A stretch of DNA of 64,000 nt from Bacillota bacterium (GTDB lineage: Bacteria > Bacillota > Sulfobacillia > JAJZIM01), in assembly GCA_021810565.1 (NCBI GenBank), contig JAJZIM010000007.1:1-64000 (forward strand). Reading direction: 5' to 3'. A program made the position numbers and the translations under genes. The notes beneath the pieces are model-generated. The model was not told where the DNA came from. It saw only the letters and a list, made by a program, of their open reading frames with translations, and did no database searches. Shown piece by piece: positions 10,447-38,265 of this stretch (its first letter is position 1; each line of letters opens with the position of its first letter).

Positions 10447-10538
10447 GAGGTTTCCAAGCCCGCGGGGCGGAAAGCCGAGACCAGGAATCGGACGCCACCG
10501 AACCGTTACCTCGGGAGCATCCGACCCGCGAAACAAGC

Positions 10539-10567
10539 GGAGCCCCCTCGTTGAAGAGGAGGCCCCG
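10539..10567 (-). terminator. possible terminator after the small PGVGCGG gene
   Basis: An imperfect GC-rich hairpin (GGGGCCTCCTC / GAGGGGGCTC) lies just past the stop of the gene at 10575-10775 and is followed by CTTGTTT. The U-tract is weak. Confidence 0.4.
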
Positions 10568-10574: not shown

Positions 10575-10775
10575 TCAGCCGCCGCATCCCACTCCCGGCG
10601 AGGAACTGGAGCCGGAACTGGTGCTCTTGGCCGGTGTCTGGCTGTGGGTCTGGGTCGTCGTGGTGCCCGCCTTCTGCACCGCCGCAGCGCTGCCGCCCGG
10701 CGGAGCCACGATCAGGAAGGCCACGAAGGCCACGAAGATCAGGAAGGACACCGCCACCTGTATCGTCTCCCGCAC
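10575..10775 (-). CDS. small membrane-anchored protein with C-terminal PGVGCGG
   Basis: A 66-residue protein. Residues 6-25 form one hydrophobic helix (VAVSFLIFVAFVAFLIVA). A Ser/Thr/Gly-rich linker of about 35 residues follows, ending exactly in PGVGCGG. The predicted form is a membrane-tethered tail outside the cell carrying a single cysteine. The same ending occurs on the lipoprotein at 36266-36472. No known family could be assigned. GTG 10775 has GGAGGTGAG upstream, and the gene has its own promoter (10821-10849), which supports it being real. Confidence 0.7.
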   Translation of the reverse strand: MRETIQVAVSFLIFVAFVAFLIVAPPGGSAAAVQKAGTTTTQTHSQTPAKSTSSGSSSSPGVGCGG

Positions 10776-10820: not shown

Positions 10821-10849
10821 ATCTTAACTCGCCGGCACCGAGCCGTCAA
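10821..10849 (-). promoter_or_regulatory. promoter for the small PGVGCGG gene
   Basis: TTGACG (10849-10844), a 17-base spacer, and TAAGAT (10826-10821). It overlaps the 3' end of the upstream gene and sits 45 bases before the GTG start at 10775. Confidence 0.65.
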
Positions 10850-11226
10850 GCGCTGCGCCGCTCACCGATGAGCAGCGCCCGTCCGGCGCCGATGGCCCGA
10901 ATCAGGTCCGCCGGATCCCGGATCAGCCGGCCCAGGACATGGGCGTCGATAACCTCGTCCACGCTGATGGGCGGCAGGTCCGCCGCGGGCAGATCCTCCT
11001 GCATCCGATGCAAAAGGTTCAACAGGCACTGGCGCAGGCTCCACTCCAGCCGGGTGTTCTCCACTCCGTAGGCGATGTCGCCGTCGGCGTTCACCGTCAC
11101 GAAGTTGTCCCCCCACACCAGCCGGAAACCGCCCTCCGGCAGAGTCACGCGCACCGGCAGCATACCGTGGTCCCTAAACCACCGACTCAAGGCTGCTTCC
11201 AGTTCGTCGCGCCGCCGCGCGTCCAT
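10846..11226 (-). CDS. conserved-looking protein of unknown function
   Basis: 126 residues from ATG 11226, which has GAGGAGG nine bases upstream. The sequence is soluble and mixed alpha/beta with no signal peptide. It contains GFRLVWGDNFVTVNADGDIA, then an acidic helical half (PPISVDEVIDAHVLG). No known motif was recognised. It stands alone between rluD and the pyr operon, with a good promoter at 11317-11345 upstream. Confidence 0.7.
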   Translation of the reverse strand: MDARRRDELEAALSRWFRDHGMLPVRVTLPEGGFRLVWGDNFVTVNADGDIAYGVENTRLEWSLRQCLLNLLHRMQEDLPAADLPPISVDEVIDAHVLGRLIRDPADLIRAIGAGRALLIGERRSA

Positions 11227-11316
11227 CCCGCTTTCCTCCTCACCGCAATTTGCCAATATGGCCGGTTGCTGCGCATATTCTAAGAAGAAAGCCGGATGAC
11301 AACGACGTATGTGGTC

Positions 11317-11345
11317 ATGGTACAACGCATTCACCCGTTTGTCAA
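11317..11345 (-). promoter_or_regulatory. promoter for the gene at 10846-11226
   Basis: Consensus TTGACA (11345-11340), a 17-base spacer, and TACCAT (11322-11317). Confidence 0.6.
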
Positions 11346-21709: not shown

Positions 21710-22750
21710 TCAACCTCCTTCGTGATAGCCGGGAAAGGCCAGCCAGGTACGCCGCACAAGCTCCCGGAAAGCCTTCCCCTCCCTGCTCCACCCCGCCAGC
21801 ATCTCCTGGCGCTTGGTCTGCGCCCGGCGCAAGCTTCCTCCCAGCTCCCGCTCCAAAAGGGCGGGGTATTCGGCCAAAAGCGCCAGGTCGCCCGCCTGCA
21901 AGGCCCGCGCGACCTGACGGCCGGCCAGGGTGCCGCTGACCACGGCGCTCAGGATGCCGGCACCGCTCACCGGGTGGGTCAGCCCCGCCGCATCCCCCGC
22001 CAGGAGCAGGTTCTCCCGCTGCACCACCGGCAGCATCCCCCCTACCGGCACCAGGCCGCCGCCCGCTGCCAGCGGCCGCCCCCGCTTCACCAAACCCCGG
22101 GGCAGGGTCTGCAGGAATTCCGCCAGGGCCCGGCGGGGGTTCCCCTCCAAGGCCACTCCGATGTTGGCCCGGTTGCCCTCCTTGGGAAACACCCAGGCAT
22201 AACCGCCGGGGAAGGCGGGCCGAAAATGGATCTGGGGCTCGGTGAACTCCCGGGACAGCTCCCGACGCTCCTGCCATGCGGCCACGAAGCCGCGGTTGCG
22301 GCTGCCCAGGTGCCGTCCCACCGTCGAGGTGGGGCCGTCGGCCCCCAGGATAACCCGGGCCTCCACGGCTTCCCCTCCCTCCAGGCGCAGCTCCCCGCCG
22401 CCGAACCACGCCCGGGTGCCGGTGATCAGGCGCGCCCCCGCCGCCACCGCCGCCTCGGCCAGCATCCGGTCGAACACCTCCCGGCGCAGCACGAACCCGG
22501 GGGCGCGCGTCAACTCCTCCTCGCCGTCGGGCAGCACGGTCTTCAACTCGGCGGTGGCCCGAGCCACGGCCGCCGACGGCAGCTCCACCCAGCGGGTCAG
22601 GGCCCGGGGCACGTACTCGGCGCACTGCACCGGCCGCCCCACCTGGCGGCGCCGCTCCACCAGGAGCACCTCCAAGCCCGCCGCGGCCGCCGTCCGGGCG
22701 GCCAGGCTGCCGGCCGGGCCCGCCCCTACCACCGCCAGATCACACCGCAT
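21710..22750 (-). CDS. geranylgeranyl-reductase-family FAD oxidoreductase
   Basis: 346 residues beginning LAVVGAGPAGSLAARTAA, a Rossmann FAD motif. It also has VGRPVQCAEYVPRAL and LLLAGDAAGLTHPVSGAGIL, both diagnostic of the geranylgeranyl reductase branch. The start ATG 22750 overlaps the ligase gene. Related flavoproteins recur in sHdr-LipS clusters, where a role in lipoate assembly or reduction is suspected. The substrate is unknown. A lipid-saturating function is the alternative. Confidence 0.82.
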   Translation of the reverse strand: MRCDLAVVGAGPAGSLAARTAAAAGLEVLLVERRRQVGRPVQCAEYVPRALTRWVELPSAAVARATAELKTVLPDGEEELTRAPGFVLRREVFDRMLAEAAVAAGARLITGTRAWFGGGELRLEGGEAVEARVILGADGPTSTVGRHLGSRNRGFVAAWQERRELSREFTEPQIHFRPAFPGGYAWVFPKEGNRANIGVALEGNPRRALAEFLQTLPRGLVKRGRPLAAGGGLVPVGGMLPVVQRENLLLAGDAAGLTHPVSGAGILSAVVSGTLAGRQVARALQAGDLALLAEYPALLERELGGSLRRAQTKRQEMLAGWSREGKAFRELVRRTWLAFPGYHEGG

Positions 22751-24284
22751 CGTCGGCCGCGGCTCGGTCCAGGACGCGGCGCAGCACCTCCAGGCGCAGG
22801 GTGGTTTCCCGCTCATAACGTCCCTGGTGGGCCTCCCGCTCCTGGCCCAGGTCGTAGCAGGTCACGTCGTCGATATCCACCAGCACCCCCGGCAGGCCGG
22901 CCGCCTCGAAATCCGCCAGGTGCTTCTGGTAGAAGGCGGCGCAGCAGGCCCCCACGAAGGAGTGCACCCCTTTGGCCTTGAGCCTGGCCAGGGTCTCCTC
23001 CAACTCCTCGTAGTTGTTGATGCTGACGGGCACCAGGCCGCGCTCCTCGGCCATGCGGTAGGCTTCGCCCACGGTGCACCGCCCGCATTTCGCGCACTCG
23101 TCCTGCAGCCGGTGCTCGCACCACAGGGGCTTGGCGCAATAGGGCAAGAGCAGAGCCCCCGCCCCTCGCACCTCCCGCAGCGGCCGCACCACGGGGAACA
23201 CGGCGTTGGCCTCTTCCTCCGCCAGGCCCAGTCGCCGATATTCGGCCCGCTCCCCCGCCCGCAACAGGGCGCGCAGGAAGTCCTCCGGGGTCACGCCCGG
23301 GGTGGAGCGTCCCTCCTCCCGGAAGAAGGTCTCCAGCCGCTCCCGCAAGGCCGCCTCCTCCAGGGGGGCGTGCTTGAGCGCCGCCTCCAGGTCGTAGACC
23401 AACCGCTCCGGGAAGGCGAAGAAGTCGCCGGTGATCAGCACGCTTTGCACCATCCCGGCGTCGGCCACCAGGCTCACCCGGATCAGCCCGCCGGGCGCCT
23501 TGTGCACACCCAAAAGCTCGCGGCGGGTGTCCCGCGCTCGGCGCAGGTGCACCCACTCCGGCGAGCGATAGCGGGGAAGCCGCTCCCGCAAGAGCTCCTC
23601 CTCCGCCGCGGTGAGCCCGCCGGGCTCGAAAGCCGTCTCCAGCACCCGGGCGAAGCCTCGCGCCAGGGCGGCTTTCACCGCCTCCAGCGGCGGCACGTGC
23701 CCCAACTCCCGGGACAGCCAGGTGACCCGCTCCCGGAAGGACTGGACCTCCTTGTCCCGCAGCTTCTCCGCCGGCAGGCGCAGGGAGCGCAGCATCTCCT
23801 CCACCGGGAAATCGATGAGCAGGGTGCCCTGGAACAGGAAGGCGCCCTCCAGGGCCGTGCCCCCGGTGCCGGAGATCTTGCGGCCCTCCACCTCGATGTC
23901 GTTGGCCGGACGGAAGGAGGCGGCCACGCCGAGCTCGGCCAAGCCCAGGATGGCCCCTTGGCACAAGCGCCGGTAGGTATCTTCGGCCCGGCCCAGGTAG
24001 CCGGCGGTGATGATCTCCCAACCCAGTTGGCTGCGATCCCAGTAGAGGGCGCCGCCGCCGGTGATGCGCCGGTTGATCTCCACGCCGTGGCCGCGGCAGT
24101 AGTCCTCCCGCACCTCCTGCTCCACCGCCTGGTGGTAGCCCACCAGGACGCAGGGCGGGTCAAACTGCAAGAAGCGCAGGGTGTCGGGCACCAGCCCGCG
24201 GCTGCGGGCGGTGAGCACCACCTCGTCCAGAGCCATGTTCTCGGCCGCCGGGCGCGCCCCGGTGTCCAGGAGGCGCCAGCTCAT
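22740..24284 (-). CDS. lipoate-protein ligase fused to a DUF116 domain
   Basis: 514 residues. Positions 1-250 are an LplA/BPL-type ligase with NRRITGGGALYWDRSQ and VEGRKISGTGG, including the catalytic lysine. A helical accessory region follows. About 370-505 match DUF116, a cysteine-rich domain: LPYCAKPLWCEHR, CAKCGRCTVGEAY and FVGACCAAFY suggest a metal or Fe-S site. ATG overlaps the preceding carrier gene (ATGA). It is predicted to load octanoate or lipoate onto the GcvH-like carriers. The DUF116 role is unknown and may link ligation to LipS or redox state. Confidence 0.85.
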   Translation of the reverse strand: MSWRLLDTGARPAAENMALDEVVLTARSRGLVPDTLRFLQFDPPCVLVGYHQAVEQEVREDYCRGHGVEINRRITGGGALYWDRSQLGWEIITAGYLGRAEDTYRRLCQGAILGLAELGVAASFRPANDIEVEGRKISGTGGTALEGAFLFQGTLLIDFPVEEMLRSLRLPAEKLRDKEVQSFRERVTWLSRELGHVPPLEAVKAALARGFARVLETAFEPGGLTAAEEELLRERLPRYRSPEWVHLRRARDTRRELLGVHKAPGGLIRVSLVADAGMVQSVLITGDFFAFPERLVYDLEAALKHAPLEEAALRERLETFFREEGRSTPGVTPEDFLRALLRAGERAEYRRLGLAEEEANAVFPVVRPLREVRGAGALLLPYCAKPLWCEHRLQDECAKCGRCTVGEAYRMAEERGLVPVSINNYEELEETLARLKAKGVHSFVGACCAAFYQKHLADFEAAGLPGVLVDIDDVTCYDLGQEREAHQGRYERETTLRLEVLRRVLDRAAADDAV

Positions 24285-24709
24285 CCCTGCGCCGCCGCGC
24301 GGCACAGGGGATCGCGGGCCAACTCCGCGTCCAGCCACCGCCGGAAGGCCGCTGCCTCCAGCAGATCCCCTGGACCCTCGGCCCGGAAGGTGAAGAGCCA
24401 GCCGGCCCCGTAGGGCTCGCGGTTCACCGCCCGGGGATCCTCGGCCAGGGCACCGTTCACCGCCGTGACCACCCCGTCCGCCGGGGCATACAGCTTGCCC
24501 ACCCACTTGCCCGACTCGATGCTGCCGCACGGCTCCCCCGCCTTCAGGCGCACGCCCACCGCCGGCAGCTCCACATAGAGCACGTCCCCCGCCGTGTCGG
24601 CGGAGTAGTGGGTGGTCCCCACCGTCCAGGAAGCCTCCTCGCGGCGCACCCACTGGTGGTGGGTGTCGTAGGCCAGGTCATCCGGAAAGTCCCACTGCCC
24701 GATCCGCAC
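24281..24709 (-). CDS. GcvH-like lipoate-binding protein (third copy)
   Basis: 142 residues with the GcvH fold: YDTHHQWVRREE, GDVLYVELPAVG and IESGKWVGKLYAPADGVV, where the lysine is the expected lipoylation site. The helical C-terminus is longer than in ordinary GcvH. It differs from the two carriers at 25766 and 26222 by lacking their cysteine-containing ends. It overlaps genes on both sides (ligase ends). It could serve sHdr or be a carrier used during lipoyl assembly. Confidence 0.82.
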   Translation of the reverse strand: MRIGQWDFPDDLAYDTHHQWVRREEASWTVGTTHYSADTAGDVLYVELPAVGVRLKAGEPCGSIESGKWVGKLYAPADGVVTAVNGALAEDPRAVNREPYGAGWLFTFRAEGPGDLLEAAAFRRWLDAELARDPLCRAAAQG

Positions 24710-25763
24710 CTGCTCCCGCCTCCTTCTCCGGCGGACGGCCCCGCAGGAGTTGGTGCAGCTGTCGCCACCCCAATGCTCCGGGGTATCCTGCCCGCCATGT
24801 GCTCCATATGTTCTCCAGCTCCGGGTCCTCCACCTGCCGCCCCCTAAGCTTCCGGGCCAGCCGATGGCCGCTGTCCCCCGGCAGGGCCGGCGACGGCTCG
24901 AAGGACAGCTCCTCCACCCGCCCTTCCCGCAAGAGCAGCAAGGCCACCACCTCGGCCCCCGCTGCCGCCACCCGCCGCTCGGACAGGTACAGCCCCTCGG
25001 CGATCTTCACCTCCCGGTGGGCCGGCCGCCGTCCCGGCTCCGCCAGCCACCCCGGATCCAACAGCCGCTCCCGCAGCGCCTCCTTGCGGGCCAGGAGGGC
25101 CGCGTCGGGCACCGCCGGGGACAGATCCGCGAACAGCTCCCCAAAGCCCGCGATCAGGGCCTCCTCCACCGCTGCGGGGTCGGGGGTGAACCCCAACTCC
25201 CGGCGCATGGTGGTCAGGTTCGCGGCCATGGCCGCGGCGGCCCGCTCCTTGAACGCCGCCGAGGCCCTGAGCGGCCCCACCATCTCCTCCACCGGAAAGT
25301 CCAGCAGCAGGTTCCCCACGAAGACGTAGTGGTCCTCGATCTCCCCGGCCCCGTTGCCGGAGATCTTGCGCTCGCCCACCCACAGATCGCAGGGAGGCCG
25401 GTGCCGGGCGGCGATCCCGAACTCGGCCAGGGCCAGCCGGGCGGGCTCCAAGAACCGCCGGTAGAACTCCTCCCGCCGGGCGGGCAGGCCGGGCCGGTGC
25501 CGGTGCACCACCACCTGAAAGAAAACCTGCTGCCGGTCCAGGTAGACCAGCCCCCCTCCCACCTCCCGGCGGAAGAGGGGCAGTCCCCTGCGGTCACAGT
25601 ACTCCCGGTCCACTTCCCAGGCCAGGTCCTGGTGGTATCCCAGACACAGGTAGGGGCTGGCCGGACGGCACAGCACCACCCCCTCCCGCCCCAGGCGGGG
25701 CAGGGCGTGGTAGAAAAGCTGCGAGTCCGCCCACTCCACCTCTCCCAGACGGTACAGCTCCAT
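24678..25763 (-). CDS. lipoate-protein ligase (LplA family), stand-alone
   Basis: 361 residues with LPLFRREVGGGLVYLDRQQ and VGERKISGNGAG, the LplA substrate loop and catalytic lysine, and a C-terminal accessory domain. ATG 25763 follows directly on the LbpA stop. This is a second ligase in one operon and diverges clearly from the DUF116 fusion. In sHdr clusters a dedicated ligase (sLplA) loads LbpA, and this gene lies next to the LbpA copies. Confidence 0.85.
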   Translation of the reverse strand: MELYRLGEVEWADSQLFYHALPRLGREGVVLCRPASPYLCLGYHQDLAWEVDREYCDRRGLPLFRREVGGGLVYLDRQQVFFQVVVHRHRPGLPARREEFYRRFLEPARLALAEFGIAARHRPPCDLWVGERKISGNGAGEIEDHYVFVGNLLLDFPVEEMVGPLRASAAFKERAAAAMAANLTTMRRELGFTPDPAAVEEALIAGFGELFADLSPAVPDAALLARKEALRERLLDPGWLAEPGRRPAHREVKIAEGLYLSERRVAAAGAEVVALLLLREGRVEELSFEPSPALPGDSGHRLARKLRGRQVEDPELENIWSTWRAGYPGALGWRQLHQLLRGRPPEKEAGAGADRAVGLSG

Positions 25764-25765
25764 GC

Positions 25766-26215
25766 CTATTTGGCGCACTTGAAGCAGATGAAATTCTCCG
25801 CTTGCACCTTCTCGCCGTAGGCCTTAACGGCCGCCGTCCCGTAAAGCACCTGGCCCTTCTCTTCCTCCAGGCGGGTAGGTCGGATGCGCACCACCCAGCC
25901 CGCCCCGTAGGGTTCCTTGTTCACCATGATGGGCTCCTCTTTCAGGACCTCGTTGTGCCCCACCACCTCGCCCGTGAACAGGACCGGCACCGGACCCACC
26001 CACTTGCCGCTCTCCACCGTGGCCGCCGATTTCTTGCGCTCCAAGACGGTCCCCAGCTTCTTCGGCTTCACATGCAGGATCTGCCCGGCCTTGGTCTGGG
26101 CCACGTCGGTCATCCCCATCACCAGGGTGCCGTCGGGCTCGAGCCGCCCCCAGACGTTCTCCTCCACGTCGTAGAAAAGATCCTCGGGAAAGTCACAGCC
26201 GTTGATGGTAGCCAA
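25766..26215 (-). CDS. lbpA: lipoate-binding protein LbpA (GcvH-like), copy 2
   Basis: 149 residues. N-terminal INGCDFPEDLFYDV, lipoyl site VESGKWVGPVPVLFTGEVV, then EPYGAGWVVRIRP; the C-terminus ends ENFICFKCAK. The fold and lysine match GcvH, but it belongs to the LbpA type linked to sHdr sulfur oxidation, where the bound lipoate is thought to be the sulfur-carrying arm. The TTG start has AAGGAG nine bases upstream. The paired cysteines at the tail are not part of GcvH. Confidence 0.88.
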   Translation of the reverse strand: MATINGCDFPEDLFYDVEENVWGRLEPDGTLVMGMTDVAQTKAGQILHVKPKKLGTVLERKKSAATVESGKWVGPVPVLFTGEVVGHNEVLKEEPIMVNKEPYGAGWVVRIRPTRLEEEKGQVLYGTAAVKAYGEKVQAENFICFKCAK

Positions 26216-26221
26216 TGGGCA

Positions 26222-26665
26222 TCACTCCTTGGCGCAGGAGTAGTTCTCCTCTTGCAGCTTCTTCCGGTAGGCCTCGACGCCCTCCTTGCCGTAGACCAGG
26301 GCCGCCTTCTCGGCCTCCAGGTCGGCGGGTTTCAGCTTGACGATCCAGCCGGCTCCGTAGGGATCCTTGTTGATGATGGAGCCGTCCTTGTTCAGGTCGT
26401 CGTTGGCGGCCACCACCTCACCGGTGAAGGGGGCCGGAACCGGCCCCACCCACTTGCCGCTCTCCACCGTGGCCGTGCTCTTGCCCTTGGCCAGGGTTGC
26501 TCCCACCCGCTTGGGGTGGGCATAGAGGATCGCCCCGGCCCGGGATTGGGCCGGATCGGTCATGCCCACGGTCACCGTGCCGTCCCCCTCCAGCCTGGCC
26601 CACACGTGCTTGTCCACGTCGTAGTACAGATCCTCGGGGATGTTGCACTTGTTGATTTCCGCCAC
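26222..26665 (-). CDS. lbpA: lipoate-binding protein LbpA (GcvH-like), copy 1
   Basis: 147 residues, a close paralogue of the next gene: INKCNIPEDLYYDVDKHVWA, VESGKWVGPVPAPFTGEVV with the lipoylated lysine, and a C-terminus ENYSCAKE. It lies three bases from hdrB2, so it is co-translated with the sHdr complex. It is the most likely primary substrate-carrying partner of sHdr. Confidence 0.88.
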   Translation of the reverse strand: MAEINKCNIPEDLYYDVDKHVWARLEGDGTVTVGMTDPAQSRAGAILYAHPKRVGATLAKGKSTATVESGKWVGPVPAPFTGEVVAANDDLNKDGSIINKDPYGAGWIVKLKPADLEAEKAALVYGKEGVEAYRKKLQEENYSCAKE

Positions 26666-26668: not shown

Positions 26669-27583
26669 TCAAACCACTCCTCTCTTTTTCAGGGCCTCGG
26701 AAGCACCGGAGTACTGGAGTCCCAACCCCACGTCCTTTGCCGACCCGCCGAAGGCCAGGCCCAAAAGTTGCGTGAAGTAGGTGACCGGCATCTGGATGGA
26801 GTCGCCGAAACGGCTCTTCAGGTCGTTGTAGCGCACGTCCAGGGCCGCGCCGCACAGCGGGCAGTTGGTGGTCAGAACATCCGCTCCGGCCTGCCGCGCC
26901 TGCTCCAGGACCGACGCGGACAGCTTCAGGGAGTTGTCCTCGTCCCCCAGGGCGTGGCCGCCGCCGCAGCAGTCGGTCTTGCCGTCCCACTCCACCACCT
27001 CGGCGCCGGCGGCCCGGAGGAGTTCGTCCATGAAGACCGGGTACTCGGGATTGTCATGCCGGGCGTCCTTGCCGGCGGCAGAGTAGATCTTGGGCCGCAC
27101 GTAGAGGCAGCCGTAGTAAGTAACCACCTTGAGACCCTTGAGCGGCCGCTTCACCTTGGCCTTGACGGCGTCGGGGCCGTGCTCGTTGAACAGATACTCC
27201 AGGAAGTGGCGCACGTCCGACTTCCCGTCGTAGGCGGGCTCCCCGGCCTCGCCTAAAAGCTGGTTCACGTCCTCCACCAGGGTCGGGCGCTTCTTCATCT
27301 CCGTGGTGGCCCGCCGCATGGTGTAGTGGCAGCCGTTGCACGGCGTCACCAGGGAATCGGCGTTCATGTGCTTCTTGGCCAGGGCCAGGTTGCGGGCCGG
27401 CAAGAGGTAGGAGGAAAGCTCGTCCGCCCGCTTGGCCTCGATGGCCCCGCAGCAGCTGTAGTCGTCGATGGTCGCCAGCTCCACGCCCAGGGCCCGGGCC
27501 GTGAACTTGGCCGACTCGTCGTAGGACTTGCCGAAACCCTCCAAGGAGCATCCCGGGAAATAGGCTACCTTCGCCACCGCCAT
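26669..27583 (-). CDS. hdrB2: sHdr subunit B2 (HdrB-like, two CCG domains)
   Basis: 304 residues with two cysteine-rich CCG domains: FPGCSLEG / YSCCGAIEAK / PCNGCHYT, and YYGCLYV / DCCGGGHA / NCPLCGA. Both are complete, consistent with binding the noncubane 4Fe-4S clusters of heterodisulfide reductase HdrB. In sHdr, B and C subunits form the site where sulfur bound to lipoate or a thiol is oxidised in the cytoplasm. It starts with ATG directly after the hdrC2 stop. Confidence 0.9.
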   Translation of the reverse strand: MAVAKVAYFPGCSLEGFGKSYDESAKFTARALGVELATIDDYSCCGAIEAKRADELSSYLLPARNLALAKKHMNADSLVTPCNGCHYTMRRATTEMKKRPTLVEDVNQLLGEAGEPAYDGKSDVRHFLEYLFNEHGPDAVKAKVKRPLKGLKVVTYYGCLYVRPKIYSAAGKDARHDNPEYPVFMDELLRAAGAEVVEWDGKTDCCGGGHALGDEDNSLKLSASVLEQARQAGADVLTTNCPLCGAALDVRYNDLKSRFGDSIQMPVTYFTQLLGLAFGGSAKDVGLGLQYSGASEALKKRGVV

Positions 27584-28243
27584 CTAATGCGCCCCCCCTG
27601 CCGCGGCCCGGCGCCGCTTCAGCACTTCCTGCATGCCCTTCCAGTGCTTCACCTTGGCCCCGCCGAAGAGCTTCATCTGGCCCTTCAGCATCATCTGCAT
27701 GCCCATCCCGGCCCGTTTGGCCAGCTCGCCGGCCCGGCCGGTCTTCAGGTAGAACTCCTGGCCCATCTTGGCTTCCTCGATGCGACCGTGGTTGGTGACC
27801 TGGTCCATGAAGATCTCGGCGAACACCTCGGCGTTGGTCGGCTTGGCGTACACGCCGCGCCGCTCCAAAAGGGCGGTGATGGCCCCCACCACGTCGGCGG
27901 TGTTGACCTCCTTGGGGCAGCGGTGGGTACATTTTTGGCAGGAGGCGCAGCGCCAGATCTGGTCCGACTTGGCCCGGATCTCCTCCCAATCCCCCAGGCG
28001 CACCAGGTCGATGAACTGCCGGGGGTTGAAGCCGTCCACATAGGGGTTCATGGTACACCCGGCGGAGCAGGTGCCGCACTGCCAGCATTTTGCGAGGCTC
28101 TCGCCGCCGGGCAGGGTCATGGTCTCCTTCAGCAGAGCGTCGTCGAAGGGATCGGTCTCCACCCGGAAGGGCAGGAAGTTCATCCACTCCCCGGTCAGCT
28201 CCACGCCGTCGACGACCACCGTGGGGCTCTGGGCAACCGCCAA
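27584..28243 (-). CDS. hdrC2: sHdr subunit C2 (HdrC-like ferredoxin)
   Basis: 219 residues containing two 4Fe-4S motifs, CWQCGTCSAGC and CASCQKCTHRCP, in the HdrC arrangement, and a basic helical C-terminus (GGAKVKHWKGMQEV). It passes electrons between HdrA flavin and HdrB. The TTG start has GGGAGG upstream. It lies two bases from hdrA and is fused translationally to hdrB2. Confidence 0.9.
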   Translation of the reverse strand: MAVAQSPTVVVDGVELTGEWMNFLPFRVETDPFDDALLKETMTLPGGESLAKCWQCGTCSAGCTMNPYVDGFNPRQFIDLVRLGDWEEIRAKSDQIWRCASCQKCTHRCPKEVNTADVVGAITALLERRGVYAKPTNAEVFAEIFMDQVTNHGRIEEAKMGQEFYLKTGRAGELAKRAGMGMQMMLKGQMKLFGGAKVKHWKGMQEVLKRRRAAAGGAH

Positions 28244-28244
28244 C

Positions 28245-29282
28245 TTATTTTCCTCCCTTCAGGTAGGCCGCAGCCCGCAGGGCCGCCGCCGCCCCCTCCA
28301 GGGCCGCGTCCTCAATGTCCTTGGGCCCCAGGGCCGTGCCAGCCACGAACACCCCCGCCGCCTTGGTGCTCACGGGAGCCAGCATGCGATCGGCCGGTTC
28401 CACGAAGCCGTCCTCCGCCACGGGGAGGCCGAAGAGGGAGGCCATGGCCTTGGTCCCCTCCGAGGGGCCCATGCCCACGGTGAGCACCACCATGTCGAAG
28501 GGCGTCTCGCTGGCCCGGGCCTTCAGGGTCTCCTCGGCCTTGAGCAACAGCTCGTCGCCCCGGCGGCGCACCTCGGCGCCCCGCCCCCGGATGAAGCGCA
28601 CCCCGAAGTCGTCCTGAGCCTTCCAGTACAGTTCCTCGAAGCCGCGACCATAGGTGCGGATGTCCATGTAGAAGATGTAGACCTGCATGTCGGGGTACTT
28701 CTGGCGCAGCTCCACGGCCTGCTTGGAGGCCACCACGCAGCCCACCCGGCAGCAGTACTTGCGCTCCACCTGGGCGTCCCGGGAGCCGATGCACTGGAGG
28801 ATGGCCACCTTCTTGGGCACCTGGCCGTTGGAGGGACGCACCACCTTGCCATCCGAGAGCATCCCCTCCAACTGCGCGCTGGTGATGACGTCCGGGAAGA
28901 CGCCGTAACCGTACTCGGGCTTGACGGAAGGGTCGAAGTGCTCGTAGCCCGTGGCGATGATCACCGCCCCGGCCTGGAGACGCTCCTCCCCCTTACCGTT
29001 CTGCACCGTCAGGGTGAAATCCTTCCCCTGGCCGGCGACGGCGGTGACGGTGCTGTTGAGATGCACCTGGACCCCGTCCTGCTGCACCGCTTTGACCAAG
29101 GCGCCCACGACCTCCTCGGCGGGCCGCAGCTCCGGCGCGAGGAGGGCGAACTTCTCCTGCACCGGCGTGCCGCCCAGCACGCCCGCCTTCTCCACCAGGG
29201 CCACGTCCAGTCCCAGACTGCGCAGCTCCGCCGCCGCCTTCAGACCGGCCGGCCCGCCGCCGATGACCACTACGTTCTCCAT
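28245..29282 (-). CDS. hdrA: sHdr subunit A (HdrA-like flavoprotein)
   Basis: 345 residues, the short sHdrA form. The N-terminal FAD site is VVVIGGGPAGLKAAAE. The iron-sulfur cysteines are in CIGSRDAQVERKYCCRVGC, and a second nucleotide region (GVFVAGTALGPKDIEDA) follows. Methanogen HdrA has extra ferredoxin domains that are lacking here. It is the central flavin subunit between the C1B1 and C2B2 pairs. Confidence 0.92.
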   Translation of the reverse strand: MENVVVIGGGPAGLKAAAELRSLGLDVALVEKAGVLGGTPVQEKFALLAPELRPAEEVVGALVKAVQQDGVQVHLNSTVTAVAGQGKDFTLTVQNGKGEERLQAGAVIIATGYEHFDPSVKPEYGYGVFPDVITSAQLEGMLSDGKVVRPSNGQVPKKVAILQCIGSRDAQVERKYCCRVGCVVASKQAVELRQKYPDMQVYIFYMDIRTYGRGFEELYWKAQDDFGVRFIRGRGAEVRRRGDELLLKAEETLKARASETPFDMVVLTVGMGPSEGTKAMASLFGLPVAEDGFVEPADRMLAPVSTKAAGVFVAGTALGPKDIEDAALEGAAAALRAAAYLKGGK

Positions 29283-29306
29283 TTTATCCCCTCTCCCCCT
29301 GCCGTA

Positions 29307-30347
29307 TTAGAGAATGCCGACTTTCTTCAGCACCGGTTCCACCGGCGTCGCGTGGAAGTTGATCCCCGCCACCTTGTAGGGATCAGCTCCCAGGGAAAGC
29401 GCCGCGATCTGGGAGTGGAACAGGGCCGGGTAGGAGTAGTTCTCACCCACAGCCTTCATGATCCACTGGTTCTTGTCGATGGTGGTGCCGCACCCGGTGC
29501 AGTTGACCAGGATGACGTCCGGGTCCACCTCCCGCTGGATGGCCTGCAGCTTGACCCGCAGGGCCGAGCGGGTGAACTCCCGGTTCACCAGGATGTGGCG
29601 GAAACCGAAGCCGCAGCAATGGAACCACTTGGAATAGTCCTGCACGTCGAAGCCTAGGGTCTTGCCCAGCTCGCGGACCACGATGGGCTTGGCTCCGCCG
29701 ATGACGTCGTCGTTCATGATCTTGTAGAAGTGGCAGCCGATGTGGTCCACCGCCCGCAGACCGTCGAAGCGATATTTGGCCTTGGCCGCGATCTGGTCCC
29801 GCAGGACATACATGACCTCGCTGTTGTGCACGACCTCCTCGGGAATGACCAACTCCCGGCCGATGGCATGCATGATCTTGCGCACCTCGTCCCGGATCTC
29901 CTTCTTGGTCACCAGCAGGTGGCGCATCTCCTGGTAGTTGCCGAAGCTGGTCACGCAATGCACGTCCAAGTTGTAGCCCGTCTCGTACACCCGGTGCCAG
30001 TTGCGCACCGCCGCCGCCGCCAGGGATACCAGGTTGTTGGTGGCCGAGGCGTGGTAGTTCCATGCGGTGCAGGAGGTGTGCTCCATGTCGTTCAGGTAGT
30101 CGATCCCCAACTGCTCGTAGACGTACATGCTGGAGGCCGGCACGCCGGGCAGGTTAGTGCACTGCCCGCAGGACTTGTGCTGGTACAGGTGGGTGGTGGG
30201 GATCTTCTTCTTGATCCCGTGGGCCACCTCTACCTCCTCGTAGGGACCCACCACCCGTTGGATCTTGATCTCGCCCTTGTCCTCCAGCTCCCGCATCTCC
30301 TGCCGAATGTCGTGGCTGTGAGCGTGGGGCTCCTCTGCCAATGCCAA
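29307..30347 (-). CDS. hdrB1: sHdr subunit B1 (HdrB-like)
   Basis: 346 residues. The C-terminal CCG domain is intact (DHIGCHFYK, WFHCCGFGFRH, VNCTGCGTT). The N-terminal one is altered: SCGQCTNLPG and HTSCTAWNYH replace the usual CCG core. This asymmetry separates sHdrB1 from B2 and from HdrB of methanogens. TTG 30347 has GGAGGTGG upstream. It forms a pair with HdrC1. Confidence 0.88.
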   Translation of the reverse strand: MALAEEPHAHSHDIRQEMRELEDKGEIKIQRVVGPYEEVEVAHGIKKKIPTTHLYQHKSCGQCTNLPGVPASSMYVYEQLGIDYLNDMEHTSCTAWNYHASATNNLVSLAAAAVRNWHRVYETGYNLDVHCVTSFGNYQEMRHLLVTKKEIRDEVRKIMHAIGRELVIPEEVVHNSEVMYVLRDQIAAKAKYRFDGLRAVDHIGCHFYKIMNDDVIGGAKPIVVRELGKTLGFDVQDYSKWFHCCGFGFRHILVNREFTRSALRVKLQAIQREVDPDVILVNCTGCGTTIDKNQWIMKAVGENYSYPALFHSQIAALSLGADPYKVAGINFHATPVEPVLKKVGIL

Positions 30348-30360
30348 CCTAAGCCACCTC

Positions 30361-31035
30361 CTAGGTGTGCGAAGCCTCCGCGGCCTGCTTCTCGTCCTCC
30401 AGGGCTTCCTCGATGTTGTCCCACGCCAGCTCCACCAGGAAGGGGTTGGTCGCCTCCACCCGGTCCATGGCGCCGGACAGCTTCCAGATGTCCAGAAGCT
30501 CCTTGATCACATGCGCCGGCACCGCCCAGGAGCGGTCGATGGGCATGAGTCCCGGGATCCCCAACTCCGCCCGCCATTCCTTCTTGTGCTTGGACATCTC
30601 CGCCACCCGCGGACCCCAGTCCGGGAAGAAATCGGGGGCGATCATGTCCGGCGACAGCTGGTTGCCCACGGTGAGGATGGTCTTCAGGATGCGGGTGTAC
30701 TTCTCCAGGGCCTCCTTGGCCCAGCCCTTTTCCACCGCGATGTCCCGCAGGATCATCACCAAATCGGCCGCGGAGTTGCCCCGCGGGCAGCGGAACTTGC
30801 AGGAGCAGCACTGGGCGCAATACCAGATCTTGTTCTCCAGCCAGTTGCGCAGCTCCGCCTCGTCCGCCCGTCCCGTGGCCTCCACCACTTCCCGCGGGTT
30901 GTAGTCGTAGAACTGCCCCGCCGGGCACAAGGACTCGCAGGTTCCGCAGGAGAGGCAGCCCTGATAGGCATCCTCGAAGCGGGGATCCTGGGTCATGCGC
31001 TCGTACACCTTCAAGTCGCCGAAATCGATGGCCAT
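30361..31035 (-). CDS. hdrC1: sHdr subunit C1 (HdrC-like ferredoxin)
   Basis: 224 residues with two 4Fe-4S motifs, CLSCGTCESLCP and CAQCCSCKFRCP, near the N-terminus, and a long helical C-terminal part (KTILTVGNQLSPDMIAP). ATG has AAGGAG upstream. The gene order C1-B1-A-C2-B2 fits sHdr loci of sulfur oxidisers, but no separate small gene lies between hdrA and hdrC2. Confidence 0.9.
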   Translation of the reverse strand: MAIDFGDLKVYERMTQDPRFEDAYQGCLSCGTCESLCPAGQFYDYNPREVVEATGRADEAELRNWLENKIWYCAQCCSCKFRCPRGNSAADLVMILRDIAVEKGWAKEALEKYTRILKTILTVGNQLSPDMIAPDFFPDWGPRVAEMSKHKKEWRAELGIPGLMPIDRSWAVPAHVIKELLDIWKLSGAMDRVEATNPFLVELAWDNIEEALEDEKQAAEASHT

Positions 31036-31059: not shown

Positions 31060-31425
31060 CTAAAAGAACATGGCCGCGTCGACCTCCAGGATGAGGTCGT
31101 TCAGCGTCGCTGCGCCCACCACCTCCACTTCGGGAATTAAATCCGCCGCGGTCAGATCGGCCTGATCCATGCTCTGGGCGCAGACCATGAACTTGGCCCC
31201 GGCCGCCAAGGCGTCGTCCATGAAATCCTTGATGGTCTTGGGGCTGTCGGATTTGATGCGCAGGGTCTCCGCCACGCCCTTCTTCAGCGTCGTCGCCCCG
31301 TGGATGGTGAAAAACACGATGGCCTCCATGTCCATGGCCCTGGCCACACTAGCCATAAAGAGGGGGGTAGCCAACCTGCCCGGGGTATCCACCCCGCTGG
31401 TTTGCACGTACAGCATCTTGCTCAT
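31060..31425 (-). CDS. DsrE-family sulfur carrier (DsrE3-like)
   Basis: 121 residues with the DsrE fold. A single cysteine at position 82 (AKFMVCAQSMD) is in the place of the sulfur-binding cysteine of DsrE-type proteins. It lies between tusA and hdrC1, where DsrE3 proteins of sHdr loci occur. It likely passes sulfane sulfur between TusA and the sHdr/LbpA system in the cytoplasm. Confidence 0.85.
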   Translation of the reverse strand: MSKMLYVQTSGVDTPGRLATPLFMASVARAMDMEAIVFFTIHGATTLKKGVAETLRIKSDSPKTIKDFMDDALAAGAKFMVCAQSMDQADLTAADLIPEVEVVGAATLNDLILEVDAAMFF

Positions 31426-31479: not shown

Positions 31480-31710
31480 CTACTTTACCTTCTTGACGTA
31501 GAACAGCAACTTGCCGCCGGCCTCGCCGGTCTCCACCAGCTCGTTGCCCGTGCGCTTGCACCAAGCCGGAATGTCCGCCTTGGCGCCGGCATCGGTGGCG
31601 ATTACTTCTAAAACCTGCCCCGTCGCCATCTTCTCTACGGCACCCTTGGTCTTGAGGATCGGCACCGGGCAGCAAAGCCCGGAGGTGTCCAGGGTCTGAT
31701 CCGCCTTCAT
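31480..31710 (-). CDS. tusA: TusA-family sulfur carrier
   Basis: 76 residues, starting MKADQTLDTSGLCCPVPILK. The CPxP motif at 14-17 contains the persulfide cysteine, preceded by a second cysteine at 13. It is the usual TusA length. ATG 31710 has AGGTGAGG upstream. It is the first gene of the sHdr transcription unit and a donor or acceptor for the neighbouring DsrE3. Confidence 0.92.
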   Translation of the reverse strand: MKADQTLDTSGLCCPVPILKTKGAVEKMATGQVLEVIATDAGAKADIPAWCKRTGNELVETGEAGGKLLFYVKKVK

Positions 31711-32175: not shown

Positions 32176-33417
32176 CTAGTCGGCCGGAGCCTTCTTGACC
32201 ACCTTGGGAGCCGGCCGGCCGAAGCCCCAGATCCGCTCGGCGACCCACTCGTCCAGCCGAGTCCCGAACCACACCCCCGGGAATAGCCCCACGGAGAATA
32301 GCATCCCCGACATGTCCAAGCGCACGGCGAAGCTGTCCGACCAGGCCGCGATGTTGCAGCCCAGGGCGACCGAGGCCCCGAAGCCCATGATCATGCCGCC
32401 GACCAGGTACCACAGCAACTTGGAAGGCTTGCCGGGCACCCGCAGCCGGAACTCCCCGGCGATCTTGGAGGAGATGAAGGCACCCAGGATGGTGATGGGG
32501 ATGAACAGCCACAGCCCCAGGGCCACATAGCCCAAGTGGTGGCCGTAGTGGGGGTAGCTGAACTGGTTCAGGTCCAGGGGGGTCAGCCGGGAGAGAACCT
32601 GTCCGTGCACGACGCCCTGGGTGAACCAAGGGGAAGAAACCAGGTTGAGGCCAAAGGGCTGGGTGATGAAATTCACCAGCCAGGCGATGGTCAGGGTGTT
32701 GGGGGTGTTGACGCTCATGGACACCCCCTCCGCCAGGGTGACGTAGACCACGGTCATCACCGCCAAGGCCACCGCCCCCGCGTAAGGGTGCCACGGCTGC
32801 TTCAATGAGAAGGTGAAGCGCTTCTCCTTGTACTGGGCGGCCTTCTTCTGGGGCAGGAAGCGACGCAGGTACACGGCCAGGAGGATCAAAAGCCCGCCGG
32901 AGATGATCCCCCAAGCCAGGGGAGGGAGCCCCAGGGCTCCCCAGATGGTGATGGCCTTGGTGGCCGCCACCGCCGGCGCCTCCACCTGCTGGTAGAAAAA
33001 CAGGGCGAAGACGATGCCTCCCAAACCGGCCCCGATGAACTCCATCCAGTTGGCCACGTAGCCGGATCCCGATCGGAACAGCTGGCCCGAGGCGCAGGCG
33101 CCGCACATGGCGATGCCGACCCCGAACAGGAAGCCGCCCACCACCGTGAACCACCCCTGATGGTCGATGGCCGGCTGCACGATGCCGAACTGGGTCAGCA
33201 CCGACATGAGCACCGCCGAGATCCCGAGGAACAGGAACACGCCCTGCAGGATCCATGGATTGCGAAATTCCATGGTTTCCTGAAAGGCCGTGGTGAAGCA
33301 GAAGCGGCTGCGCTCCAGGACGATCCCGAAGAGGATCCCCAGGATCAGGAAGATGGCCACTATGGCCCAGCCGGGAATGAAGCTCGGCAGGTTGGACAGG
33401 AAGCTCAAGTTATACAC
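32176..33417 (-). CDS. YeeE/YedE (TsuA-type) sulfur-compound transporter
   Basis: 413 residues with about 10 membrane helices. Conserved cysteines lie in RSRFCFTTAF, AMCGACASGQLFR and ALGCNIAAW, the hallmark of YeeE/YedE channels that import thiosulfate or related sulfane sulfur. It is directly downstream of a TusA-like gene, as in yeeE-yeeD pairs. GTG 33417 is chosen with GAGGTAAGG upstream; TTG 33408 is possible. The likely job is sulfur entry for the sHdr pathway. Confidence 0.9.
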   Translation of the reverse strand: MYNLSFLSNLPSFIPGWAIVAIFLILGILFGIVLERSRFCFTTAFQETMEFRNPWILQGVFLFLGISAVLMSVLTQFGIVQPAIDHQGWFTVVGGFLFGVGIAMCGACASGQLFRSGSGYVANWMEFIGAGLGGIVFALFFYQQVEAPAVAATKAITIWGALGLPPLAWGIISGGLLILLAVYLRRFLPQKKAAQYKEKRFTFSLKQPWHPYAGAVALAVMTVVYVTLAEGVSMSVNTPNTLTIAWLVNFITQPFGLNLVSSPWFTQGVVHGQVLSRLTPLDLNQFSYPHYGHHLGYVALGLWLFIPITILGAFISSKIAGEFRLRVPGKPSKLLWYLVGGMIMGFGASVALGCNIAAWSDSFAVRLDMSGMLFSVGLFPGVWFGTRLDEWVAERIWGFGRPAPKVVKKAPAD

Positions 33418-33439: not shown

Positions 33440-33706
33440 CTAGCGCGAGGTCTTCTTCACCTTGATGCGCCAGTAGTCCCCCTCCTTCTCCAGGACGTAG
33501 GGCCAGTTGTTCTCCGCGCAGATCCCCGGCACCGTCTCCTCCGCCGCCGGGGGGTGATCGATGAGGATCTCCAAGACATGGCCCACCGGCATCCGCTTCA
33601 GCTTCTTCTGGGAGTGCAGCGCCGGGAAGGGGCAAGTCTCCCCCCGCACGTCGAAGACCTCATCCGGTTCCGTGTTCTTCAGTTCCTCCAATGCATCCGC
33701 CACCAT
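33440..33706 (-). CDS. TusA-like sulfurtransferase (second copy)
   Basis: 88 residues with VRGETCPFPALHSQKKL; the CPxP cysteine is residue 25. Compared with the copy at 31480 it has a longer N-terminus and a CFP variant. It corresponds to YeeD, the partner that takes sulfur from YeeE. The start codon is ATG 33706 or GTG 33703. Confidence 0.88.
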   Translation of the reverse strand: MVADALEELKNTEPDEVFDVRGETCPFPALHSQKKLKRMPVGHVLEILIDHPPAAEETVPGICAENNWPYVLEKEGDYWRIKVKKTSR

Positions 33707-33735: not shown

Positions 33736-34047
33736 TCAGGCGCACGACACGAGTCTGCCCGCGGCGAGGATCAGATCCACCACCGCGGGGTAGTCCACCT
33801 GCCGCACGTTCGGAACCAGTTTCTGCGCGATCCCCCGGGCCAGGACATCGGCCTCGACGGCGTAGAAGGTGCCGGGCAACTGCGCGAAGTGCTCCTGCGG
33901 TTTGGAGCCCGCCACCAGGTTGTACACCGCGTCGGCATAGCACAGGATCGCCACCTCTTCCTCCGCCGCCAACTCCCGGACTACTTCCCCCAGACTGGTG
34001 AGGGCCTGGGCCTCATCCGGCGCCTTGGAAGTGACCACCAGCGTCAT
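33736..34047 (-). CDS. DsrE/DsrH-like small protein
   Basis: 103 residues beginning MTLVVTSKAPDEAQAL. The pattern VAILCYADAVYNLVAG resembles TusB/DsrH and DsrE-fold subunits. One cysteine lies mid-chain and one near the end (VSCA). It lies with two other DsrE-fold genes, so a heteromeric TusBCD-like complex is possible. Confidence 0.72.
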   Translation of the reverse strand: MTLVVTSKAPDEAQALTSLGEVVRELAAEEEVAILCYADAVYNLVAGSKPQEHFAQLPGTFYAVEADVLARGIAQKLVPNVRQVDYPAVVDLILAAGRLVSCA

Positions 34048-34063: not shown

Positions 34064-34420
34064 TCAAAAGCCGACGATCAGCTCGTGCGCTCGGAGGATC
34101 TTGCCCAAGTCACTGCGGCTGATGGGCTCCACGAAGTCGGCCAAGTCCGCGTCGGACAGGCCGCGCTCCTGGGCGTCCTCGCGCACCAGCTTGGGCGTGA
34201 TCTCGCAGTCCACCACCTCGTCGATGAACAGCTGCATGGACGGTCGTCCCACCCGCTCCGGGTCCACGCCCCGCACGGCGTTGAACACCCCGTCCCCCAA
34301 CAGCACGATGGTGGCCGCCACGTCGGCCACATACAGGCCCAGGGACACGCGGAAAGCCTCGAAGGAATCCTTGGAGCCCACGGGCGGCTTGCGCACCAGG
34401 ATACAGATCTTGTCAGCCAT
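34064..34420 (-). CDS. DsrE/DsrF-family protein
   Basis: 118 residues, with KICILVRKPPVGSKDSFEAF and ATIVLLGDGVFNAVRG, as in the DsrE/DsrF fold. It has a single cysteine (VVDCEITPKL) in the usual active-site region. GAGGAGGGGG precedes the ATG. It is the middle gene of a three-DsrE run. Confidence 0.8.
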   Translation of the reverse strand: MADKICILVRKPPVGSKDSFEAFRVSLGLYVADVAATIVLLGDGVFNAVRGVDPERVGRPSMQLFIDEVVDCEITPKLVREDAQERGLSDADLADFVEPISRSDLGKILRAHELIVGF

Positions 34421-34432: not shown

Positions 34433-34834
34433 TCACGGTATCAGAAACAGCGTGCGGTCGGAGTCGTAGACCAAGGCTCCGAACTTGGAGGTGCTGGAGA
34501 TCACCGCCCCCGGTATGAGATCCTCCTGATCCAAATTGCGCTCCTCGCTGGAGCGCGAGCACACCCCCAGCTTCAAGGGACTTTCCCCCGTGGCCGGATC
34601 CCGGGTCTTTTCCATGAACTCGGCCAACTCCCGGGTCAGCGGTTTGATGTCGGCGTGCTTCACGTCCTCCAGGAAGGAGGCGGCATGGAACACCCCGTCC
34701 GCCAGGCCGAAGATCGTCACCTCGTGCCCCTTGCCCACCGCCGCCTTGGCCACCTCGAGGGCGAAGCGGCCGTGCTCGGTGTGCTCGGGAGCGGTGAAGA
34801 CCAGGATCGTGAGTTTTCCCAAGGCGAACTTCAT
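34433..34834 (-). CDS. DsrE-family protein
   Basis: 133 residues starting MKFALGKLTILVFTAPEHTE. The DsrE fold shows in VTIFGLADGVFHAASF, with one cysteine at PLKLGVCSRSSEERN. The ATG overlaps the cytochrome gene stop (ATGA), linking the DsrE genes to the membrane redox gene in one unit. Confidence 0.8.
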   Translation of the reverse strand: MKFALGKLTILVFTAPEHTEHGRFALEVAKAAVGKGHEVTIFGLADGVFHAASFLEDVKHADIKPLTRELAEFMEKTRDPATGESPLKLGVCSRSSEERNLDQEDLIPGAVISSTSKFGALVYDSDRTLFLIP

Positions 34835-36504: not shown

Positions 36505-37050
36505 TCAATGCCACGTTCCCGGTTGGGATCCGGAAACCACCGGGAAGTTCGGAATGCTGCTCCTGGAGGGCAGCACATCGGTGTGATGGTTCCAATCCGC
36601 CATGCCCAGATGCATGGAGTAGGCCTGGTAACCCAGAATGCGCAGCAGGGCCATCGTCTGATTGGACCACTGCCCCGTATAGCACATCACCACGATGGGC
36701 TGGTGCTTGGGCAGCTTGCTGAGTTCCTGTCCCACCTGGGGGAAGGGGATGTTCACCGCTCCGGGAATGTGGAAGGCATCGTATCCGGGGACGCCGCCTT
36801 GGGTAGTGGCCTCGCGCACGTCTAGCAGGAAATATTTGTGCGGGTTCTTCTGCAGGGCATTGTACAATTGCTGCGGACTGATCTGATAGGTCTTGTACCG
36901 GCTGTTCAGGGAGTTCATCCAGTAGCCGGTAACCTTGGACACCGCAATGGCGTTGCCGGCCGGCGCGCCGCTCGCCGCGCCCAAACCACACCCACCCGTC
37001 ACCGCCGCCAAGGTGAGGCCCAGGAACAAACCTGCACCCTTACGCAGCAC
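36505..37050 (-). CDS. rhodanese-domain lipoprotein
   Basis: 181 residues. The N-terminal signal has a likely lipobox (AAVTGGC). A single rhodanese domain follows: YFLLDVREATTQ and the active loop CYTGQWSNQ with the persulfide cysteine. It is predicted to be anchored outside the membrane and to transfer sulfane sulfur from thiosulfate or another donor. GTG 37050 has AAGGAGGTGAG nine bases upstream. It is first in its operon behind a strong promoter (37224-37253). Confidence 0.88.
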   Translation of the reverse strand: MLRKGAGLFLGLTLAAVTGGCGLGAASGAPAGNAIAVSKVTGYWMNSLNSRYKTYQISPQQLYNALQKNPHKYFLLDVREATTQGGVPGYDAFHIPGAVNIPFPQVGQELSKLPKHQPIVVMCYTGQWSNQTMALLRILGYQAYSMHLGMADWNHHTDVLPSRSSIPNFPVVSGSQPGTWH

Positions 37051-37381
37051 CGCTTCTCACCTCCTTCCGGGCTCCGGATGGCGGCCCCCATATGCACTAA
37101 ACGCCCGGGCGGTGATCCCTGCCGCGGGCCTCTTTTTACGGGCCTCTCCTGATGAACCGGCTTTGCAGTTGTCCTCCGGCGGGGTCCGCTGGCCGCAGCC
37201 TCGCCGTGCGCGAATTCCGACTCATTTTACCTCCGGCTTTTCCGGCGTGTCAAGCCGTTCGTCGTCGCGCCCGGTCACCGACCACAAAAACAAGGCGCTT
37301 CCGTCTCCCCTGCCCGAGGGTCGACTTCCGCGCCGCGATCCCACTCCAAATAGCCAGCGGACTTCGCTCCGCCCCGCCGTC
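37051..37381 (-). promoter_or_regulatory. promoter and long leader of the rhodanese-cytochrome-DsrE operon
   Basis: The 330 bases between genes hold a strong promoter (37253-37224: TTGACA, 18 bases, TAAAAT). A leader of about 165 bases ends in AAGGAGGTGAG before the rhodanese start. Several GC-rich hairpins are possible in the leader, but no known riboswitch was recognised. The rest (37255-37381) shows nothing recognisable. Confidence 0.75.
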
Positions 37382-37873
37382 TCAGAAGGACCAGTGTATA
37401 TTGCAGTCGGCTGCGATCTCCAACGCCGTAGCCGCGCCCACTGCTTCCTGGCACCCCTCCACCAAGTCCTCTTTCTTCATGCTGAAGGCGTCCATGGTCA
37501 TCTGGCAGGGGTAGATCTTCACCCCCGAGTCGATGCAAAGGTGCACCAACTCCGGGATGCTCATCATGTTTACCCGCTTGAACATGGACTTCATCATCCC
37601 AGTGGCCATCTTGCGCATGCCGGGCAGGGCTCCCACATTATCGATGATGGCTCCGGGCATGGGCATGGGCATCCCCGGCACCGGCATGCCGGCGTTCCCC
37701 ACGGGACTGACCTGCAGCTTGTCGTACAGGTGCCGATTGATCACGTTGAGTCCGTAGAAGGTGTAGAAGATGTAGGACTCCATGTCCATGGCCGCCGCCG
37801 TGGAAGCCAGGATCAACGGCGGATAGGCCTCGTCCAGACCCCCGTGGATCGCAATGATCATCTGCTTCGCCAA
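37382..37873 (-). CDS. DsrE2-like (DrsE_2 family) protein
   Basis: About 163 residues. Residues TAAAMDMESYIFYTFYGLNV and a methionine-rich stretch (MPVPGMPMPMPG, MRKMATGMMKSM) match the DsrE/DsrF-like DrsE_2 group. The conserved cysteine is in GVKIYPCQMTMDAF. TTG 37873 is chosen from the GGGGTGAG site; GTG 37882 and ATG 37861 are alternatives. It lies directly behind the ArsR gene. It may associate with the membrane in sulfur transfer. Confidence 0.82.
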   Translation of the reverse strand: MAKQMIIAIHGGLDEAYPPLILASTAAAMDMESYIFYTFYGLNVINRHLYDKLQVSPVGNAGMPVPGMPMPMPGAIIDNVGALPGMRKMATGMMKSMFKRVNMMSIPELVHLCIDSGVKIYPCQMTMDAFSMKKEDLVEGCQEAVGAATALEIAADCNIHWSF

Positions 37874-37926
37874 AGCTCTCACCCCCCTCCTCGCCGCGGG
37901 ACAAGGGCGTCTCCGCCGCGCTGCGG

Positions 37927-38265
37927 CTAGAGCGCCTCCCGGTACGCATCGTGGAGTTCCGCCTTGCGGGCCAACTGCTCGGCCAGCACCTCCCGCAGGA
38001 TGTCGAGCGCCTGAATTATCTTGGGATGGGCCAAGTGGTAGTAGACCTGGGCGCCCTCGCGCTCGGCCACCACCATGGAGCGCTGCCGCAGGACCCCCAA
38101 GTGCTGGGACACGTTGGCCTGGCGCAGGTCCAAAGCCGCCACCAACTCTCCCACCGAGCGGCGACCGTTCCGCAGGGCGTTCAGGATCAGCAGGCGCTTC
38201 GGATCGGCCAGGGCCTGGCATATCTCCGCGTGGAGCTGATAGATCTCCTCGACCTCGGAGCGCAT
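37927..38265 (-). CDS. ArsR-family transcriptional regulator
   Basis: 112 residues with a winged-helix ArsR fold: LADPKRLLILNALRNG and DLRQANVSQHLGVLRQRSMV as the recognition helix region. Only one cysteine (residue 16) is present, unlike redox sensors of the BigR/sHdrR type that use a cysteine pair. AAGGAGG precedes the ATG. Placed at the head of the sulfur genes, it is the probable local repressor. Two GCATAT repeats lie in its own upstream region (38292-38313). Confidence 0.88.
   Translation of the reverse strand: MRSEVEEIYQLHAEICQALADPKRLLILNALRNGRRSVGELVAALDLRQANVSQHLGVLRQRSMVVAEREGAQVYYHLAHPKIIQALDILREVLAEQLARKAELHDAYREAL

Follow-up and report, generated by a model that had tools for sequence, protein, structure and literature searches.

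The C-terminal GGCGG of SoxY carries a cysteine that binds the sulfur substrate, a role that is well established (PMC6067878). SoxY acts as an extracytoplasmic carrier in thiosulfate oxidation and consists of a folded domain (PF13501) that is paired with SoxZ. LbpA has a C-terminal cysteine, often with glycines beside it, that has been likened to the one in SoxY (PMC6067878). LbpA carries sulfur intermediates in the sHdr system and is a cytoplasmic protein with a folded, GcvH-like domain and a lipoyl arm. Small sulfur carriers are also encoded beside YeeE importers; these are the YeeE/TsuA partners TsuB/YeeD and TusA, both folded and cytoplasmic. The YeeE channel is lined by functional cysteines, whereas both the presentation of sulfur to YeeE/SoxT and the route by which extracellular sulfane sulfur reaches the cytoplasmic sHdr system have been described as unknown (PMC11582611). 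Finally, in Hyphomicrobium, and again in an sHdr context, a 56-residue one-helix protein of unknown function, Hden_0678, is encoded beside soxT1A (PMC11582611).

Two genes in the window (the whole stretch of 64,000 nucleotides that was analysed) encode small proteins, CGG_tm and CGG_lp, that share features with each of these systems. Like SoxY, they end in a Gly-rich tail that contains a single cysteine close to its terminus (GVGCGG versus GGCGG), and the same extracytoplasmic role is proposed for them below; unlike SoxY, they are made up of an anchor, a linker and a tail only. CGG_lp is encoded in the same gene cluster as LbpA, of which the window has two copies as separate genes, and the YeeE-adjacent TusA is present in the window as well. 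Hden_0678 resembles the helix-type CGG proteins as a tiny single-helix protein whose gene adjoins a YeeE-like transporter, but it has no cysteine at all and therefore cannot be a cysteine carrier.

Two small proteins with a common C-terminal tail

Both open reading frames lie on the minus strand, each with a GTG start and a good ribosome-binding site in front, and the plus strand at both sites translates to unrelated sequence. The features of CGG_lp and of the CGG_tm locus are as follows.

10575..10775, minus strand: CGG_tm, 66 residues, with one membrane helix (about residues 5-23), a Ser/Thr/Gly/Ala/Pro linker and the tail PGVGCGG; homologue in HOT.CON.99 (G128) at 38% identity
10821..10849, minus strand: promoter-like site TTGACG-17-TAAGAT upstream of CGG_tm (consensus match only)
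10538..10567, minus strand: terminator-like hairpin directly after the CGG_tm stop codon
36266..36472, minus strand: CGG_lp, 68-residue lipoprotein with lipobox LAAC, lipidated Cys24, a linker of the same type as in CGG_tm and the tail PGVGCGG

The translation of 36266-36472 is MYKVWKAVLILAAMAALVVALAACGGAGKATSSPSSSTKSTSVTNGTTSGSSTSGGSKAKAPGVGCGG, followed by a stop codon, and shows the features of a bacterial lipoprotein, namely, an N-terminal helix, a positive start (MYKVWK...) and the lipobox L-A-A-C ending in Cys24. The preliminary description of two small proteins with an identical PGVGCGG end was thus confirmed for both frames. Its mention of a single cysteine is exact for CGG_tm, whereas CGG_lp has the lipobox cysteine C24 as well; its description of the genes as unlinked holds in the window genome, but relatives have the helix-type gene within the sulfur cluster, and the copy beside pyrR is the exception. 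Throughout the 3.18-Mb genome, CGG_tm and CGG_lp are the sole GxGCGG-stop sites, two further matches to the pattern having TGG in place of the stop codon. Among the 424 window frames of at least 50 residues, about 0.0015 pairs with seven identical C-terminal residues would be expected by chance, an estimate that ignores local composition. A plus-strand frame of 72 residues (6425-6643) ending in AGCGG lies opposite a long open reading frame and was rejected as a family member. The string GVGCGG did not occur in the literature searched.

Short Gly-rich C-terminal motifs on exported proteins are also known as GlyGly-CTERM and LPXTG signals, and a sortase-like recognition signal had been suggested for the tail. 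In the CGG proteins, however, the anchor is N-terminal, just two residues follow the cysteine, both proteins stop at the motif with neither a hydrophobic helix nor basic residues behind it, and neither an LPXTG-like motif nor a sorting enzyme is indicated; this suggestion is thus unsupported and was rated low. The tail may instead be a modification tag, as had also been proposed. ThiS/MoaD-like GG carriers are marked by a beta-grasp fold, a cytoplasmic location and E1-like activation, whereas the CGG proteins are membrane-anchored, of low complexity and without a domain match, and a ubiquitin-like GG carrier reading was considered and rated low.

In the window genome CGG_tm lies between rluD and pyrR, apart from the sulfur cluster, and it looks monocistronic. 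A 162-residue frame between rluD and CGG_tm (10846-11334, minus strand) has no Pfam or NCBIfam match. The charges flanking the CGG_tm helix (0 to -1 on the N side, 0 to +1 on the C side) would allow either topology, including a cytoplasmic tail; an outside location of the helix form is nevertheless what we infer.

The sulfur-oxidation cluster around the lipoprotein copy

From 38.3 to 22.7 kb the minus strand encodes, in order, ArsR, DsrE2, a rhodanese lipoprotein, CGG_lp, a membrane cytochrome c (cytMP), a TusD-like protein, DsrE, DsrH, TusA and YeeE/TsuA, followed by TusA, DsrE, HdrC, HdrB, HdrA, HdrC, HdrB, two LbpA proteins and two lipoate ligases.

37927..38265, minus strand: ArsR-family regulator that may sense sulfane sulfur for the cluster
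37382..37909, minus strand: DsrE2-like protein (start uncertain)
37224..37253, minus strand: promoter-like site TTGACA-18-TAAAAT preceding the rhodanese, CGG_lp and cytochrome genes (consensus match only)
36505..37050, minus strand: rhodanese-domain lipoprotein with active-site loop CYTGQW (PF00581, E 2e-16); orthologues in L046 and L047
34831..36249, minus strand: cytMP, encoded immediately behind CGG_lp; a membrane protein of several helices that ends in a CxxCH cytochrome c domain, with orthologues in 4 further class genomes
34433..34834, minus strand: TusD/DsrE-like sulfurtransferase (start codon inferred)
34064..34420, minus strand: DsrE-family protein (PF02635)
33736..34047, minus strand: DsrH-like protein (PF04077)
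33440..33706, minus strand: TusA sulfur carrier, the copy adjoining YeeE (PF01206)
32176..33408, minus strand: YeeE/TsuA-type sulfur importer (PF04143, E 4e-48; 6LEO, E 4e-24)
31480..31710, minus strand: second TusA
31060..31425, minus strand: DsrE
26669..31035, minus strand: sHdr block with two CCG-domain HdrB-like genes, two 4Fe-4S HdrC-like genes and one HdrA-like flavoprotein gene
25766..26665, minus strand: two LbpA-type (GcvH-like) lipoate-binding proteins (PF01597)
22740..25778, minus strand: two lipoate-protein ligase genes (PF21948)

With its hdrC/B/A-like genes accompanied by lbpA, lipoate ligase and TusA/DsrE genes, this run is, judged by its predicted products, a cluster for sulfur oxidation of the sHdr-LbpA type that includes an import module. 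Its importer has the Sulf_transp domain and aligns with Spirochaeta thermophila TsuA around the conserved cysteines. CGG_lp lies between the rhodanese lipoprotein gene and cytMP, in agreement with the earlier statement that one copy is next to a rhodanese and a cytochrome. Outside the run, a T-box leader (41104-41308, minus strand) precedes a class I (valyl/isoleucyl type) tRNA synthetase gene (38316-41162).

Orthologues of cytMP are rare, being found in 5/154 genomes of the class with the window genome counted, and those at L046, L047, L048 and L049 are conserved together with TusA/DsrE/YeeE genes. A scan of genome contigs with the cytMP alignment returned only two contigs, from JA1.bin10 (G001) and HOT.CON.99 (G128). 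In the alignment of the five sequences the heme domain lacks any conserved methionine or histidine downstream of CxxCH, with VPAW where MPAW is usual, and this lack of a conserved sixth ligand hints that the heme is reactive and not a pure electron carrier. No match was obtained with the cytMP alignment in a PDB profile search, and Pfam has no model for the membrane part. Since the AlphaFold model had a mean pLDDT of 48, no fold search was made with it. Possibly, cytMP is an undescribed thiosulfate- or sulfur-oxidizing enzyme.

Tail conservation beside YeeE and selection on the peptide

Directly after yeeE, three of the other cytMP genomes encode a short helix-linker protein ending in GVGCGG or AVGCGG.

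L048:3919-4107: homologue in HOT.CON.99 (metagenome-assembled genome), ending in GVGCGG
L049:12412-12594: homologue in Sulfobacillus acidophilus (G032), ending in GVGCGG
L047:13409-13601: homologue in "Ca. Hydrogenisulfobacillus filiaventi" R50 (G078), ending in AVGCGG and split by an apparent frameshift

Tail conservation had been chosen beforehand as a test capable of refuting the preliminary description; the test was run, and the tail survived, being GVGCGG in four copies and AVGCGG in R50. In R50, the reading frame changes between anchor and tail, at a GC-rich homopolymer run, and because this assembly is Nanopore based and of 70.6% GC, the frameshift is likely an assembly indel error; if so, it would explain how such a gene escapes annotation. 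R50, HOT.CON.99 and S. acidophilus, where the pyrR loci were also looked at, have no VGCGG tail other than that of the copy after YeeE, and R50 and S. acidophilus appear to have the helix form only. No CGG copy was found in JA1.bin10, which has the rhodanese, the cytochrome and YeeE; its contig ends inside YeeE and the genome is 84% complete. The neighbours conserved among the genomes are the rhodanese, cytochrome c, TusD/DsrE/DsrH, TusA and YeeE. The stretch of S. acidophilus that was examined has no rhodanese, however, and the sulfur donor is therefore not constant among the genomes.

Across the five sequences the linkers could not be aligned in detail, whereas the last six residues are nearly invariant. 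Within the six tail codons, five third positions vary, together with one second position (G to A) and no first position. Changes in the tail are therefore almost exclusively synonymous, indicating selection on the peptide and, hence, that the genes are translated. Once every VGCGG site followed by a stop codon had been read across the 154 class genomes, the tail family was present in 4/5 cytMP-positive genomes and in 0/149 cytMP-negative genomes. For strict GVGCGG the counts were 3/5 versus 0/149 (Fisher P value = 1.7e-5; 5e-4 without the window genome), values that serve as guides only, since the genomes are related and S. acidophilus and HOT.CON.99 belong to one large family whose other examined members are without both genes. 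No further family case was seen when GVGCGG was sought in 398 genomes of the phylum, and every other retrieved VGCGG, GVGCGG or PxxGCGG site with a stop behind it, in class or phylum, was rejected as a chance frame, short or unrelated and without the helix-plus-linker architecture. Tail patterns were used as the search because a protein search with CGG_lp in 100 relatives gave low-complexity matches only. CGG_tm and CGG_lp are best explained as paralogues of a new small-protein family whose members are anchored by a helix or a lipid and have some 40 residues of flexible linker before a fixed (G/A)VGCGG end; that this family is real, translated and linked to sulfur metabolism we regard as highly probable.

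A proposed tethered sulfur carrier and its alternatives

The sole well-described tail of this kind that was found among sulfur-metabolism proteins appears to be the GGCGG of SoxY, which matches the CGG tail in being Gly rich, with a single cysteine two residues from the end, at the very terminus. Pfam detected no SoxY domain (PF13501) in CGG_tm or CGG_lp. A search of the window genome gave no SoxB at an E value of 1e-3, and S. acidophilus gave one match, below the cutoff; SoxY was not found in five genomes, in a search whose control genomes gave no match either. The cluster proteins tested gave no match to SoxZ, SoxA or SoxX. On account of the SoxY-like tail in proteins without a SoxY domain, together with these SoxB and SoxY searches (the latter without a positive control), we propose that the CGG proteins could be minimal, fold-less, membrane-tethered swinging arms for sulfur, analogous to SoxY, a proposal to which we give an even chance. 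On this proposal, sulfane sulfur or thiosulfate would be loaded onto the tail cysteine on the outer side of the membrane, either by the adjacent rhodanese lipoprotein or through oxidative coupling at the membrane-bound cytochrome c; the tail glycines would allow the loaded cysteine into tight sites, and the tether would hold it beside the YeeE importer. From there, TusA, the DsrE proteins and the sHdr-LbpA system would receive the sulfur inside the cell. The persulfide carrier suggested earlier thus has strong circumstantial support in the tail kept in three other genomes, the sulfur clusters beside YeeE/TsuA and the SoxY-like end, and we infer the transfer chemistry, that is, the loading of the cysteine and its donor and acceptor.

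That the CGG gene lies directly behind yeeE in three relatives, and that functional cysteines line the YeeE channel (PMC11582611), would also suit a tail that is part of the importer. It would then serve YeeE (or the cytochrome) as a gate, plug or assembly factor on a tether, with a cysteine that senses the pore or caps it and does not ferry sulfur. The window CGG_lp gene lies instead between rhodanese and cytochrome, however, and the best-matched known cysteine tail, that of SoxY, belongs to a carrier; we consider an importer part unlikely. Less probable again is one carrier per side of the importer, with the helix form inserted tail-in to offer its cysteine to TusA or DsrE in the cytoplasm and the lipoprotein acting outside. 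The flanking charges lean slightly that way, and both anchor types are represented once in the window genome, but Ser/Thr/Pro/Ala linkers of the CGG kind are typical of exported regions, the lipoprotein paralogue with the same tail is outside, and the helix form is apparently alone in R50 and S. acidophilus.

Short exported precursors with a conserved end, possible signal-peptidase sites in some helix forms and a very weak match to a YxzE-like putative bacteriocin (E 0.0036, far below the cutoff) might point to small secreted peptides (signals or bacteriocin-like) of which the conserved C terminus is the mature or modified part. This seems very improbable given that the lipid anchor of one paralogue would retain the peptide, that no maturation or export genes were noticed alongside and that the link with sulfur genes is strict. 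Equally doubtful is a metal- or heme-handling role for the tail cysteine, for example, in a chaperone for the neighbouring cytochrome c: co-occurrence with the membrane cytochrome would favour it, but a lone cysteine with no nearby histidine, methionine or second cysteine is a poor metal site, and the remaining neighbourhood handles sulfur. Least credible of all is a chance likeness between two low-complexity frames that are not genes. The GC-rich sequence, the low-complexity linkers and the fact that (G)VGCGG-stop sites elsewhere in class and phylum are chance frames would allow it, but it is already contradicted by the synonymous-only pattern, the ribosome-binding sites, the promoter and terminator and the conserved place after yeeE.

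If the tethered-carrier proposal is true, a SoxY arm is able to work without a folded carrier domain. In cultured S. acidophilus, the CGG gene directly behind that of the importer provides a specific candidate for the missing sulfur donor. More tentatively, and at somewhat less than an even chance, the CGG proteins may represent a class of fold-less sulfur carriers, each with one reactive cysteine on a disordered membrane tether, that replace SoxYZ in Gram-positive acidophilic sulfur oxidizers and dock sulfur onto a YeeE-type importer feeding the cytoplasmic sHdr system. Directly after the CGG gene, HOT.CON.99 (L048:4180-6464) and S. acidophilus (L049:12621 onward) encode lipoproteins with beta-propeller-like repeats (SDTISVI...), which are candidates for another extracytoplasmic partner.
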